A stretch of 64,000 nucleotides of DNA, from positions 1 to 64,000 of the forward strand of contig DASQNC010000016.1 of NCBI GenBank assembly GCA_035645145.1. The letters are read 5' to 3'. The translations under genes and the position numbers were made by a program. Shown in pieces: positions 625-3,575 of this stretch (positions are counted from its first letter, which is position 1; each line of letters begins with the position of its first letter). The notes below the pieces were generated by a model. That model searched no databases. It was not told the origin of the DNA and was given only the letters and a program-made list of their open reading frames with translations. The stretch comes from Azospirillaceae bacterium. Lineage in GTDB: Bacteria > Pseudomonadota > Alphaproteobacteria > Azospirillales > Azospirillaceae.

Positions 625-957
625 ATGAATAACATCACTGAGATTGGCAAGATCACCAAACGAGTTGCAGGCAGCACCACGGCCAGCGAAATTATCAGCC
701 CAGAGGAAAATTGGGGCGGAGTTGCTATCAAAACCCTATATCTTCAGGCATCACACACCGGTGGCGATGCATATATTTTCGCAGCTAAGAAAACCCCAAG
801 CGTCGGCTCAAACGAACGAATCGTTCTTATGACTTCCGGCACGCACAGTGTCGTTGGACTTCCGCATCCTATCCGACTCCCGCCGGGCTTTGGCCTCTAC
901 ATTATCACCACCTCCACAACCGGTGGCGCACTCGTCACCTACGACCTGGAAGACTAA
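625..957 (+). CDS. Unknown small protein, copy A of a duplicated pair
   Basis: 110 residues, not recognised. It has no signal peptide, transmembrane segment or cysteine. The pattern is alternating hydrophobic and polar, suggesting a small beta-rich fold. It shares with copy B (1734-2069) the N-terminal motif TEIGxxxKRVxG, an IKT motif near residue 35, an ERIxL motif, and a C-terminal RLPPGxGLxI ... VTYDLE block. A ribosome site (aggacagg) precedes the ATG. The gene has visibly more A+T than its neighbours. The C-terminal block is the best conserved part, so it is probably a real, selected protein. A phage-type structural or decoration role is only a guess. Confidence 0.75.
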   Translation: MNNITEIGKITKRVAGSTTASEIISPEENWGGVAIKTLYLQASHTGGDAYIFAAKKTPSVGSNERIVLMTSGTHSVVGLPHPIRLPPGFGLYIITTSTTGGALVTYDLED

Positions 958-966
958 TGAGGCAGG

Positions 967-991
967 CCGGACGGGGCATTGCCCCGTCCGG
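967..991. terminator. Hairpin after small gene A
   Basis: Perfect 12-bp inverted repeat ccggacggggca/tgccccgtccgg with a one-base loop, just after the stop codon of copy A and at the 3' end of the scfR remnant. There is no T run. The matching hairpin of unit 2 (2076-2106) has changed bases but kept the pairing, which supports function as a shared terminator of convergent genes. Confidence 0.55.
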
Positions 992-993
992 TC

Positions 994-1290
994 CTACCCC
1001 ACCCCGATCTGGGCGTAGCTGCTCAGGCCGCGCACATGCTCGTCCACCACCAGCCGGTGGTTCAGCGGCGGAAGGCACGCTGGGCGCAGTCGAGGCGCGG
1101 GCACAGGCGGCAGTTGACCCCGATGGGCGTGGCCGCGCTCCGGTTGCCCAGGTCCAGGCCATCGGCATAGACGATCTGGGCTGCGTGCTGCACGTCGCAG
1201 CCCAGCGCGATGGCGAACTGGCGCGGCGGCACCTTCCACCCGGCCCCGGCGTTGGTCACCGTGCGCGCCACCGACAGGTAGGTCGTGCCG
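994..1290 (-). pseudogene. Truncated scfR 3' fragment
   Basis: Matches the last ~100 codons of the intact scfR gene (2106-2403) at over 90 percent by eye. It lacks everything upstream and ends at the duplication junction. One G is missing near 1063-1070 (cggcggaagg against cggcgggaagg in the intact gene), which shifts the frame just after the cysteine cluster. There is no start and no room for a promoter, so it should be inert. Confidence 0.85.
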
Positions 1291-1381
1291 TACCCACATT
1301 GTGACCGACCGGCTGCGCAAGGTGGTCAACGAACACCACCCGCTGGCGCGCACGCCGGAAAAGGACCGGGCGGACGGCTGA
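1291..1381 (+). pseudogene. Truncated xerD 3' fragment
   Basis: Repeats the last ~80 bases of the recombinase gene, including its stop codon, with about three substitutions. Without the catalytic boxes it cannot encode a recombinase. It marks the left edge of the second duplication unit. Confidence 0.85.
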
Positions 1382-1733
1382 CCACCAATAGGCTCGTCCG
1401 CCGCTGGCCAATAGTTCAACGGAAGGCGCGTTAGGCGCAGCCCAGGCCGTCGGCATGAACAATCTGGCCCCCGGGTGGCGCGGACCTTGCCGACTGCGCG
1501 TGAGCCCCCCCCCCCTACAGCCCCTCTCTTCCTAAGAACGCGAGATGGTGGGGTGACGTAAGCCACCACACCCTGTCCGCCACTGCATTTCGAAGCACCG
1601 CACACCAGAGTCCAGGGAAGCTCCAGCGGTAAGTCCACGCATTGAGTTTATATGTACCGCACAGAAGCCAATTCATAATATCCAACTGCAGCACAGAGCT
1701 GCGAAAGCAACAAACATCAACCAAGAGGACAAA
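1382..1733. other. Intergenic stretch of unit 2 with scfR-like fossil
   Basis: No gene is seen. It is related to 227-624. Positions 1412-1475 carry the same decayed scfR-like blocks as 258-362, but with an internal deletion that joins the cagcccagg and ccgtcggcat blocks. It also holds a C-rich run near 1507-1514, a cataat hexamer (1674-1679) and the gcagc/gctgc hairpin (1688-1702). Confidence 0.5.
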
Positions 1734-2069
1734 ATGGCCAAGGCAACTGAAATCGGGACGCTTTTCAAACGCGTGCAAGGAACGAATCCGGCTGCACTAG
1801 TCATTCACCCCAACCAAAACCCTAGCGGCATCATCATCAAGACCATGACCATTGAAAATGCAGCAAATTCTTCTGTAACCGTTTTTGCCAGCGCTAAAGA
1901 CGGAATCCAAAACAACGCTGATGAACGCATTCTTCTGCATGTGGGCGGGGCCGCTCAAAGCGTCAACACCCTTCCTTATCCTGTCCGACTCCCCCCCGGG
2001 ATGGGCCTCTTTATCAGCGCCCCGGCCGCAGGTGGCGGTGTGTACGTCACCTACGACCTGGAGAACTAA
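1734..2069 (+). CDS. Unknown small protein, copy B of a duplicated pair
   Basis: 111 residues and clearly homologous to copy A (625-957): same length, same N-terminal TEIGxxxKRVxG, a shared IKT and ERILL core, and the C-terminal RLPPGMGLFIS ... VTYDLEN block. The central 50 residues differ strongly. There are no cysteines, membrane segments or signal peptide. An agagga ribosome site lies a few bases before the ATG. The gene ends against a hairpin (2076-2106) and converges on scfR. Function unknown. The flanking non-coding DNA of the two copies is more alike than the coding DNA, so the proteins appear to have diverged fast. Confidence 0.75.
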   Translation: MAKATEIGTLFKRVQGTNPAALVIHPNQNPSGIIIKTMTIENAANSSVTVFASAKDGIQNNADERILLHVGGAAQSVNTLPYPVRLPPGMGLFISAPAAGGGVYVTYDLEN

Positions 2070-2075
2070 TGAGGC

Positions 2076-2106
2076 GGGCCGGGCGGGGCGATGCCCCGCC
2101 CGGCCC
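2076..2106. terminator. Bidirectional hairpin between small gene B and scfR
   Basis: Perfect 14-bp inverted repeat gggccgggcggggc/gccccgcccggccc with a 3-base loop, between the convergent stop codons of copy B and scfR. It has no T run. It probably terminates both genes. Confidence 0.6.
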
Positions 2107-3575
2107 TACCCCACACCGATCTGGGCGTAGCTGCTCAGGCCCCGCACATGCTCGTCCACCACCAGCCGGTGGTTGAGCGGCGGGAAGGCGCGCTGGGTGC
2201 AGTCCAGGCGCGGGCACAGGCGGCAGTTGACCCCAATGGGCGTGGCCGCGCTCCGGCTCCCGAGATCCAGGCCATCGGCATAGACGATCTGCGCCGCGTG
2301 CTGCACGTCGCAGCCCAGCGCGATGGCGAACTGGCGCGGCGGCACCTTCCATCCGGCCCCGGCGTTGGTCACCGTGCGCGCCACCGACAGGTAGGTCGTG
2401 CCGTCGGGCATCTGGGCCAACTGCGTGTGCAGCCGGCCCGGCGTCCGGAAGGCGTCGTGCACATTCCAGCGCGGGCAGGCCCCGCCGAACCGGGCGAAGT
2501 GGAAGCCGGGATCGGCGGAGAAGCGCTTGGACACGTTGCCCGCCGTGTCCACGCGAATCATGAAGAAGGGGACGCCCCTGGCGCCTGGCCGCTGCAACGT
2601 GGTCAGCCGGTGGCTCACCTGCTCGAAGCTGACGCCGAACCGGCTTTGCAGAACCTCCAGGTCGTAGCGCAGGGTGCGCGCGGCCTCCAGGAACCGGCCG
2701 TAGGGCATCATCACCGCGGCGGCGAAGTAGCTGGAGAGGCCCATCAGCAACAGCCGGCGGGCGGCGTCCGACGCCAGCTCCGCCCGCTCCACCAGCCCTT
2801 CCAATAGGTCGCGGTGCTTCAGCAGGGCCACCTGCCCCGCCACCGCAAAGACCCGGCCGGAGGGCGGCAGCATTTCCGACACCAGAAGCCGCCGGGAATG
2901 CCGGTCGAAGCGGCGGGTGGTCTGGCCCATCACCTCCAGAGGCATCAGGCGCACCCGCACGCCATGGGTGCGGTCCAAATAGCGCGACAGGCTGCCGTAC
3001 AGGTCGGCCGCGTCGAGGTCGCCATCGATCCACAGCGCCTCGGCCGCCTGCTCCAACTCCGGGAAATGGTTGCCGCGGGCCTGGAACGCCTCGCCCACCT
3101 CCTCCTGCGGGAAGGCGCCCGACGCCGCGATGGCGGCCCGGTCGCCGCCGCCCTCCCGGCCCAGCGCATCGCCGCCGGCCACCCGTTCGGCCAAGCCCTG
3201 CAAATCCTCGCGCGCCTCGCGGTAGGCGCGGTAGAGCGTCAGGAACGCCTGGCCCAGGGCGGGGGCGGCGGCGGCCACCTCCTTCAGGTCCTGCCCCTTC
3301 ACGTCGGCGTGTTCGAACAGGGGATCGGCCAGCACCTCGCGCAGGCCGGCGACCAGGCGTCCCTCCTCGTCCTCGGCAAAGGCGGCGAGGTCCACGTCGA
3401 AGGTCTGGCCCAACTTGATCAGAAGCGGGACAGTCAGGGCGCGCTGGTTGTTTTCGATCAGATTCAGATAGCTGGGGCTGATGCCGAGCTGCTCGGCCAT
3501 CTGCGCCTGCGTCAGCCGCAGGTCGCGCCGGAGCCGCCGCACCTTGTGTCCCAGGATCGCCTTCCGCTCCGCCAA
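2106..3575 (-). CDS. ScfR/RamB-type short-chain acyl-CoA-responsive regulator
   Basis: 489 residues, full length for the family. The N-terminus is an XRE helix-turn-helix (about residues 8-63; QAQMAEQLGISPSYLNLIEN is the recognition region). A middle IrrE/DUF955-like domain follows, then the ScfR C-terminal domain with a cysteine cluster (C451, C454, C459). In Sinorhizobium, Mycobacterium and Corynebacterium, members control glyoxylate-shunt or propionate genes and sense acyl-CoAs. It is transcribed away from aceA across a 227-bp control region, so regulation of aceA and itself is the likely job. The 3' end is part of the local duplication, but this copy is intact. Confidence 0.85.
   Translation of the reverse strand: MAERKAILGHKVRRLRRDLRLTQAQMAEQLGISPSYLNLIENNQRALTVPLLIKLGQTFDVDLAAFAEDEEGRLVAGLREVLADPLFEHADVKGQDLKEVAAAAPALGQAFLTLYRAYREAREDLQGLAERVAGGDALGREGGGDRAAIAASGAFPQEEVGEAFQARGNHFPELEQAAEALWIDGDLDAADLYGSLSRYLDRTHGVRVRLMPLEVMGQTTRRFDRHSRRLLVSEMLPPSGRVFAVAGQVALLKHRDLLEGLVERAELASDAARRLLLMGLSSYFAAAVMMPYGRFLEAARTLRYDLEVLQSRFGVSFEQVSHRLTTLQRPGARGVPFFMIRVDTAGNVSKRFSADPGFHFARFGGACPRWNVHDAFRTPGRLHTQLAQMPDGTTYLSVARTVTNAGAGWKVPPRQFAIALGCDVQHAAQIVYADGLDLGSRSAATPIGVNCRLCPRLDCTQRAFPPLNHRLVVDEHVRGLSSYAQIGVG

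Follow-up and report, generated by a model that had tools for sequence, protein, structure and literature searches.

Two divergent alleles of a phage-related jelly-roll gene, probably stacked by recombination between lineages, in the xerC–scfR interval of an Azospirillaceae bacterium

Several described systems resemble, in one respect or another, the pair of small genes (A and B) reported here. XepA and YomS, from the lytic cassette of a Bacillus subtilis prophage, are ~110-residue beta-sandwich proteins (PMC6834076, 6i5o), and YomS is pentameric and 12.9 kDa in size (PMC6834076). The products of A and B share this size and architecture and have relatives in prophage lysis cassettes, but they have no detectable sequence similarity to XepA or YomS (PDB searches at E 5 with alignment profiles A2 and A8) and their genes stand alone on the chromosome. 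The cement, vertex and turret proteins of phages, such as those of KHP40 (7dou), PR772 (6q5u chain O) and HFTV1 (8qpg), are single jelly rolls like A and B in fold and size and are among the structures that the models of both match best; their identity to A and B is, however, 4–13%, a likeness of fold class only. Described elsewhere are com-like genes in front of llpA, cargo positions in tailocins or prophages, and Com-linked bacteriocin cargo (PMC6240691). For the arrangement of the genes, the closest precedent is the orphan immunity-gene arrays of the Vibrio cholerae type VI secretion system (T6SS), where one-sided insertions in succession stack divergent small genes and homology-facilitated illegitimate recombination has been proposed (PMC5361080). 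Unlike those arrays, our locus has no effector gene, and the fragments between its genes come from housekeeping xerC and scfR. Allele stacking by illegitimate recombination is already known; here it is caught together with an internal control.

We analyzed a window that takes up the first 64 kb of contig C16 (252 kb) in a 3.9-Mb draft genome. It opens with the 3' end of the intact copy of xerC, encoding a tyrosine recombinase (positions 2–226, + strand; Pfam Phage_integrase), after which comes an old, degenerate remnant of the 3' end of scfR (233–365, − strand; its local alignment scores 74, whereas 500 shuffles reach 31 at most). After an A+T-rich region come an inverted repeat, GCAGC-N5-GCTGC (576–590), gene A (625–957, + strand, 110 residues) and a terminator-like hairpin that has no T-run (964–995, + strand; minimum free energy −32.9 kcal/mol for 955–1003, z −4.9). 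The pairing of this hairpin is preserved in the second copy, A-U having become G-C with both sides changed. A 3' fragment of scfR follows (994–1291, − strand), joined at what we read as an illegitimate junction (1291|1292), where no clear microhomology was seen by eye, to a dead 3' tail of xerC (1292–1381, + strand; 93% identical to 137–226). Next are the old scfR remnant once more, here with a 40-nt deletion (1392–1447, − strand; alignment score 38, shuffles 29 at most), a second GCAGC-N5-GCTGC repeat (1688–1702) and gene B (1734–2069, + strand, 111 residues). Another terminator-like hairpin (2076–2106, + strand; −38.9 kcal/mol for 2067–2115, z −4.8) separates B from the convergent, intact scfR (2106–3575, − strand), which encodes the short-chain fatty acyl-CoA regulator (Pfam ScfRs, Peptidase_M78 and HTH_3). 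Past scfR lie ORFs that we named by eye as isocitrate-lyase-like and malate-synthase-like. The inverted repeat occurs twice on the plus strand of the whole window, both times upstream of the pair and at nearly equal distances from the respective genes; it is a possible operator. A Com-like ORF called by eye upstream of A (344–520) was dropped: it partly overlaps the scfR remnant and is absent from the second copy. Judged from ORFs and Pfam matches, neither A nor B has a phage gene beside it in the window. A profile search found a third family member in the same genome (contig C36), near a ClpA-like gene; weak matches on contigs C69, C51 and C63 were not confirmed by the profile and were taken as noise.

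The original prediction, which had described a pair of unknown, A+T-rich genes with shared end motifs beside an scfR fragment of over 90% identity, holds on these points. Both ORFs are intact, the end motifs are shared, the proteins are 41% identical (E 9e-27), the G+C content is 52% in A and 54% in B against 69% in the window, and the scfR fragment is 95.3% identical to the intact gene. The older scfR remnants, the dead xerC tail and the C36 member had escaped it. The two copies make up a tandem unit of ~1.1 kb, and with a blastn E of 2e-164 for the repeat a chance resemblance was rejected. Identity between the units drops smoothly toward the gene, from 93% in the xerC tail through 82, 72 and then 66% in the upstream non-coding DNA to 52, 47 and 72% in successive thirds of the gene, and is 83% in the spacer after the gene and 95% in the scfR tail. 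Divergence in the genes thus far exceeds that of the scfR fragment, but it exceeds that of their own upstream non-coding DNA, which has itself diverged strongly, to a moderate degree only.

At silent sites the contrast with the captured fragments is strong. Between A and B, dS is ~1.6 (1.62) and dN 0.60, giving a dN/dS of 0.37, and the silent sites are near or at saturation over the first ~80 codons. By the NG86 method, the scfR tail has a dS of 0.172 and a dN of 0.009, and the xerC tail a dS of 0.174 and a dN of 0.040, so that silent divergence agrees on the two flanks. The A/B gene is thus roughly tenfold more divergent than its flanks, with no sign of positive selection, and such an excess at silent sites means that selection on the protein cannot be its cause. 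The family is otherwise under purifying selection: among the Pseudomonas phage copies, the median dN/dS is 0.08 (66 pairs). Diversifying selection, one of the causes that had been suggested, accordingly finds no backing in the data. The pattern named beforehand as counting against the proposal was a dN/dS well below 1 together with divergence equal to that of the flanks; the first is what we found, whereas the divergence of the genes does not equal that of the flanks. In the tree, A and B group together as sisters (support 94/91), with end branches of 1.39 for A and 0.4 for B. Either the strains are young compared with the alleles, or a more distant source supplied a replacement for one allele before the two were joined.

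How the scfR fragment came to differ from intact scfR can be read from codon positions, as decay in place would spread differences over all three. Besides a single 1-nt deletion, the fragment carries 14 substitutions, 12 of them silent and at third positions and two changing an amino acid (P = 8e-5 against an expectation of one-third). Under a softer expectation, with half of the changes arising on the working copy, 16 of the 20 differences in the scfR and xerC fragments combined are silent (P = 0.035). The older remnant serves as an internal control: its 21 mismatches at 233–365 fall 6, 9 and 6 on the first, second and third codon positions, and the contrast with the younger fragment is significant (6 against 12 at third positions, of 21 and 14; Fisher P = 0.0012). 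This absence of codon bias is what real decay looks like at this locus. Polarised by the majority base in the scfR genes of ten relatives, which are ~65–71% identical and so allow a rough polarisation, the fragment has the commoner base at ~9 of the 14 sites. Together, the silent codon pattern, the equal dS of the flanks and the unbiased remnant lead us to conclude that the two units diverged mostly as working loci, in two lineages. The fragment had been called dead in the original prediction, but it was working while most of its differences arose. The comparison also provides a cheap sequence test of whether a dead fragment beside a duplicate has decayed in place or has been captured from another strain, and the older remnant in the same locus makes the locus its own control.

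We consider it highly likely that A and B are two alleles stacked by recombination between lineages, and the arrival of a second allele, which the original prediction had listed among its options, is supported by the flank dS values and by an scfR codon pattern typical of two working genes. A and B would be alleles of one accessory gene situated between the convergent xerC and scfR, and at first two separate lineages would each have carried one of them alone. Part of the locus from one lineage would then have entered the other, joined through homology on one side and illegitimately on the opposite side (1291|1292), giving the order xerC–A–scfR' fragment–xerC' fragment–B–scfR. At the time of joining, the alleles would already have been very different, and xerC and scfR different only at the level of strains. 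What lies between the copies is in keeping with stacking: truncated flank genes that have diverged as coding sequence. The simplest route would be homologous recombination on one side combined with an illegitimate join on the other, a process described for transformable bacteria and proposed for the stacked immunity genes of V. cholerae (PMC5361080, PMC3240628). The old scfR remnant 5' of both genes suggests an earlier rearrangement of a similar kind in the interval. This reading draws on one genome of the species, with the incoming unit presumably from another strain.

Two accounts that begin with a tandem duplication within one genome have to be set against stacking. If the duplicated genes had then diverged fast under diversifying selection while the flanks drifted, the tandem arrangement and the concentration of differences in the middle of the protein would be explained, and ordinary tandem duplication does exist in the family. 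Saturated silent sites in the first ~80 codons beside a flank dS of 0.17 are, however, more than this account can bear: selection at the protein level cannot lift dS tenfold, the dN/dS is that given above, and the differences in the scfR fragment are silent. We regard it as very improbable. An account in which recombination with a distant allele exchanged one of the duplicated genes together with the DNA upstream of it, whether or not the flanks also underwent gene conversion, fares somewhat better, although it is still distinctly unlikely. It would produce a smooth gradient of divergence centred on the gene, and the long end branch of A relative to B fits it, but it predicts neither the equal dS of the two flanks nor the 12 silent changes of 14 in the scfR fragment, which the duplication would have left dead from the outset. 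Recombinational replacement of one copy had also been put forward in the original prediction; alongside stacking, replacement of the middle is a possible additional step. In one relative (G028), two nearly identical secreted family members stand in tandem, ~600 nt apart (L139:5282–6305), an ordinary duplication of recent date, in contrast to the pair in the window.

Stacking at this site can be viewed against what the interval holds elsewhere. The xerC–scfR interval is a site of variable cargo. In another species of the genus (G001), a different ORF and a malate-synthase-like gene adjoin xerC, and the family gene is absent from this genome, the only other species of the genus that was searched. 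In a further relative (G003), the interval contains genes for a BglII-type restriction endonuclease and an MT-A70 methyltransferase (L076:4196–5548). In our own assembly, the remainder of the intact xerC is on contig C9, which ends inside the gene with an exact 141-nt overlap with the start of the window. The assembly breaks at base 142, the first base that differs between the two versions of xerC. This position suggests, as circumstantial evidence, a second strain with the other version of xerC in the sample.

We then asked to what family A and B belong. The original prediction had not recognised one, and indeed neither protein matched a model above threshold in Pfam, NCBIfam or PADLOC (for the last, nothing up to E 1, which removes a known anti-phage defence gene from consideration). 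The nearest phage cluster is phrog_31751, of uncharacterised function, which is matched by the Pseudomonas phage relatives; A and B themselves fall short of it. Single-protein searches with B retrieved nothing from phages, viral contigs or genome contigs, and single-protein viral searches with the proteins of L039, L040 and L100, as well as with alignment A4, retrieved no relatives; those we describe came via alignments. The family signature, IG...N-xx-G-xx-I-R/K-T...LP-x-G-x-G-L...T-Y-D-L, of which alignment A2 has five invariant columns, is present in A and B, and the profile recovers A, B and the C36 copy. Profile searches recovered relatives from 12 of 82 genomes in the taxonomic family, from 6 of 385 in the class and from 4 of 398 in the phylum.

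Many of these relatives lie in prophages or tailocins, so that a phage context, which the original prediction had proposed to look for, exists for much of the family, though not for the immediate surroundings of A and B. In two Azospirillaceae prophages (L141, L142) the gene has a GH108 endolysin gene on one side and a GTA-type holin gene on the other, in a third (L143) it adjoins the holin gene, and on plasmid p7 of A. argentinense it follows a phage lysozyme gene. In Pseudomonas prophages it is upstream of the holin gene and, in 16 of 25 cases by a strict pattern, behind a Com-like regulator; the same slot also holds a ColM gene (L024) or B-lectin genes (L026, L027, L107), and in L025 and L038 a second, divergent family member. 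The gene is also found in tail clusters that resemble tailocins (L106, L124). In three prophages with P2_N/P2_C genes for capsids of the corticovirus (PM2) type (a T. marina plasmid, G043 and G700), the family forms the C-terminal domain, with IG, NxxGxxIRT and TYDL, of proteins of 238–425 residues that, read from gene order, are probably spike or vertex proteins; in contrast, A and B stand alone, away from capsid genes. Single-domain members with signal peptides, as judged by eye, also occur on chromosomes outside prophages, so that a phage or tailocin neighbourhood is common and not universal. A and B begin directly at the domain, as the phage forms do, and no signal peptide was seen in them by eye. 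We take the phage kinship of the family to be very probable. Beyond an uncharacterised PHROG the family is undescribed; as far as our searches show, its spread over tailed prophages, tailocins, corticovirus-type-capsid prophages and secreted proteins is likewise new. It links lysis-cassette genes, tailocin cargo, probable spike domains of corticovirus-type-capsid prophages and secreted bacterial proteins into one small family. Prophages with P2-type (corticovirus-like) capsids were seen in two genomes (L100:3877–9599, L101:7572–15195). In Pseudomonas graminis, B-lectin (LlpA-like) genes flank the family gene on both sides, with a Com-like gene in front (L107:4792–8084). Between the Com-like and the family gene of L124 is a 214-residue protein (L124:5223–5867) with an apparent signal peptide and no Pfam match.

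Jelly rolls recur in unrelated proteins. An AlphaFold model of A, built from 14 sequences, is an all-beta, single jelly roll (pLDDT 88.6, pTM 0.81), and that of B, from a shallower alignment, is also all-beta (pLDDT 74.7); both were modelled as monomers. The best match among solved structures is the trimeric cement protein of phage KHP40 (7dou; Z 9.0 for B and 8.0 for A, over 96–99 residues at 2.9 Å). Ena spore appendage subunits and a pentameric capsid protein from a phage (4e27, Z 7.6) are further matches, and YomS lies lower (6i5o, Z 6.4, rmsd 4.5 Å over 92 residues). As nucleoplasmin, TNF/C1q and viral jelly rolls prevail in the list of PDB folds, we drew no function from it; the models place A and B in the jelly-roll class only, a Z of ~8 being near the level of unrelated jelly rolls.

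The account that we find best as a whole combines stacking with a phage-derived binding or assembly protein, and we lean towards it rather than away from it. A and B would be made in the cytoplasm as single jelly-roll domains of phage origin; the domain would most likely assemble as a small ring or trimer and bind a surface target, on the virion or after release by lysis, and the two alleles would differ in binding specificity. By analogy, the relatives in prophage lysis cassettes and XepA/YomS suggest a late, lysis-linked role, and the relatives in spike domains suggest surface binding. We infer oligomerisation, binding and release alike, and a surface-binding or assembly function is accordingly a tentative proposal. 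If the alleles do bind different targets, the locus would represent a new kind of strain-specific interaction gene.

It is unlikely, if conceivable, that A and B are small bacteriocins released by lysis, or partners of bacteriocins, with two specificities. Such a role would suit the Pseudomonas relatives, which share a Com-linked cargo slot with ColM (L024) and B-lectin genes (L026, L027 and both sides in L107) and occur as two divergent copies in L025 and L038, but most such prophages carry the family gene without a recognisable bacteriocin, A and B have neither a known toxin domain nor an immunity gene beside them, and the corticovirus-type and endolysin–holin settings do not need it. An action at the membrane during lysis, as accessories of the XepA/YomS kind, seems to us equally doubtful: the position of relatives between endolysin and holin in Azospirillum prophages and the size and fold class shared with YomS speak for it, whereas the PDB searches gave no sequence match to XepA or YomS, YomS itself has no cytotoxic effect (PMC6834076), no lysis genes adjoin A or B, and many relatives have signal peptides and lie outside prophages. 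A broader and speculative possibility, unlikely in its full extent, is that the domain is a mobile surface-binding module common to corticovirus-type-capsid prophages, tailed prophages, tailocins and bacterial secretomes, and that xerC–scfR is a hypervariable locus that keeps and stacks its alleles, for example as decoys blocking receptors for phages or bacteriocins, or as narrow-range killing proteins.

Several known roles were tried and set aside. The match of B to DUF2345 (PF10106) reaches 14.3 bits against a Pfam cut-off of 30.7. LlpA/LlpB lectin bacteriocins were rejected, as neither A nor B has a Pfam B_lectin match while neighbours of the family gene in L026 and L107 do. ColM immunity proteins (Cmi, PmiA, PmiB) were rejected in that the models of A and B are all-beta and soluble, not of the membrane type, and no ColM gene is near either. 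In L024, where ColM and the family gene occur together, a 147-residue, immunity-like ORF that appears by eye to be membrane-embedded already follows ColM.
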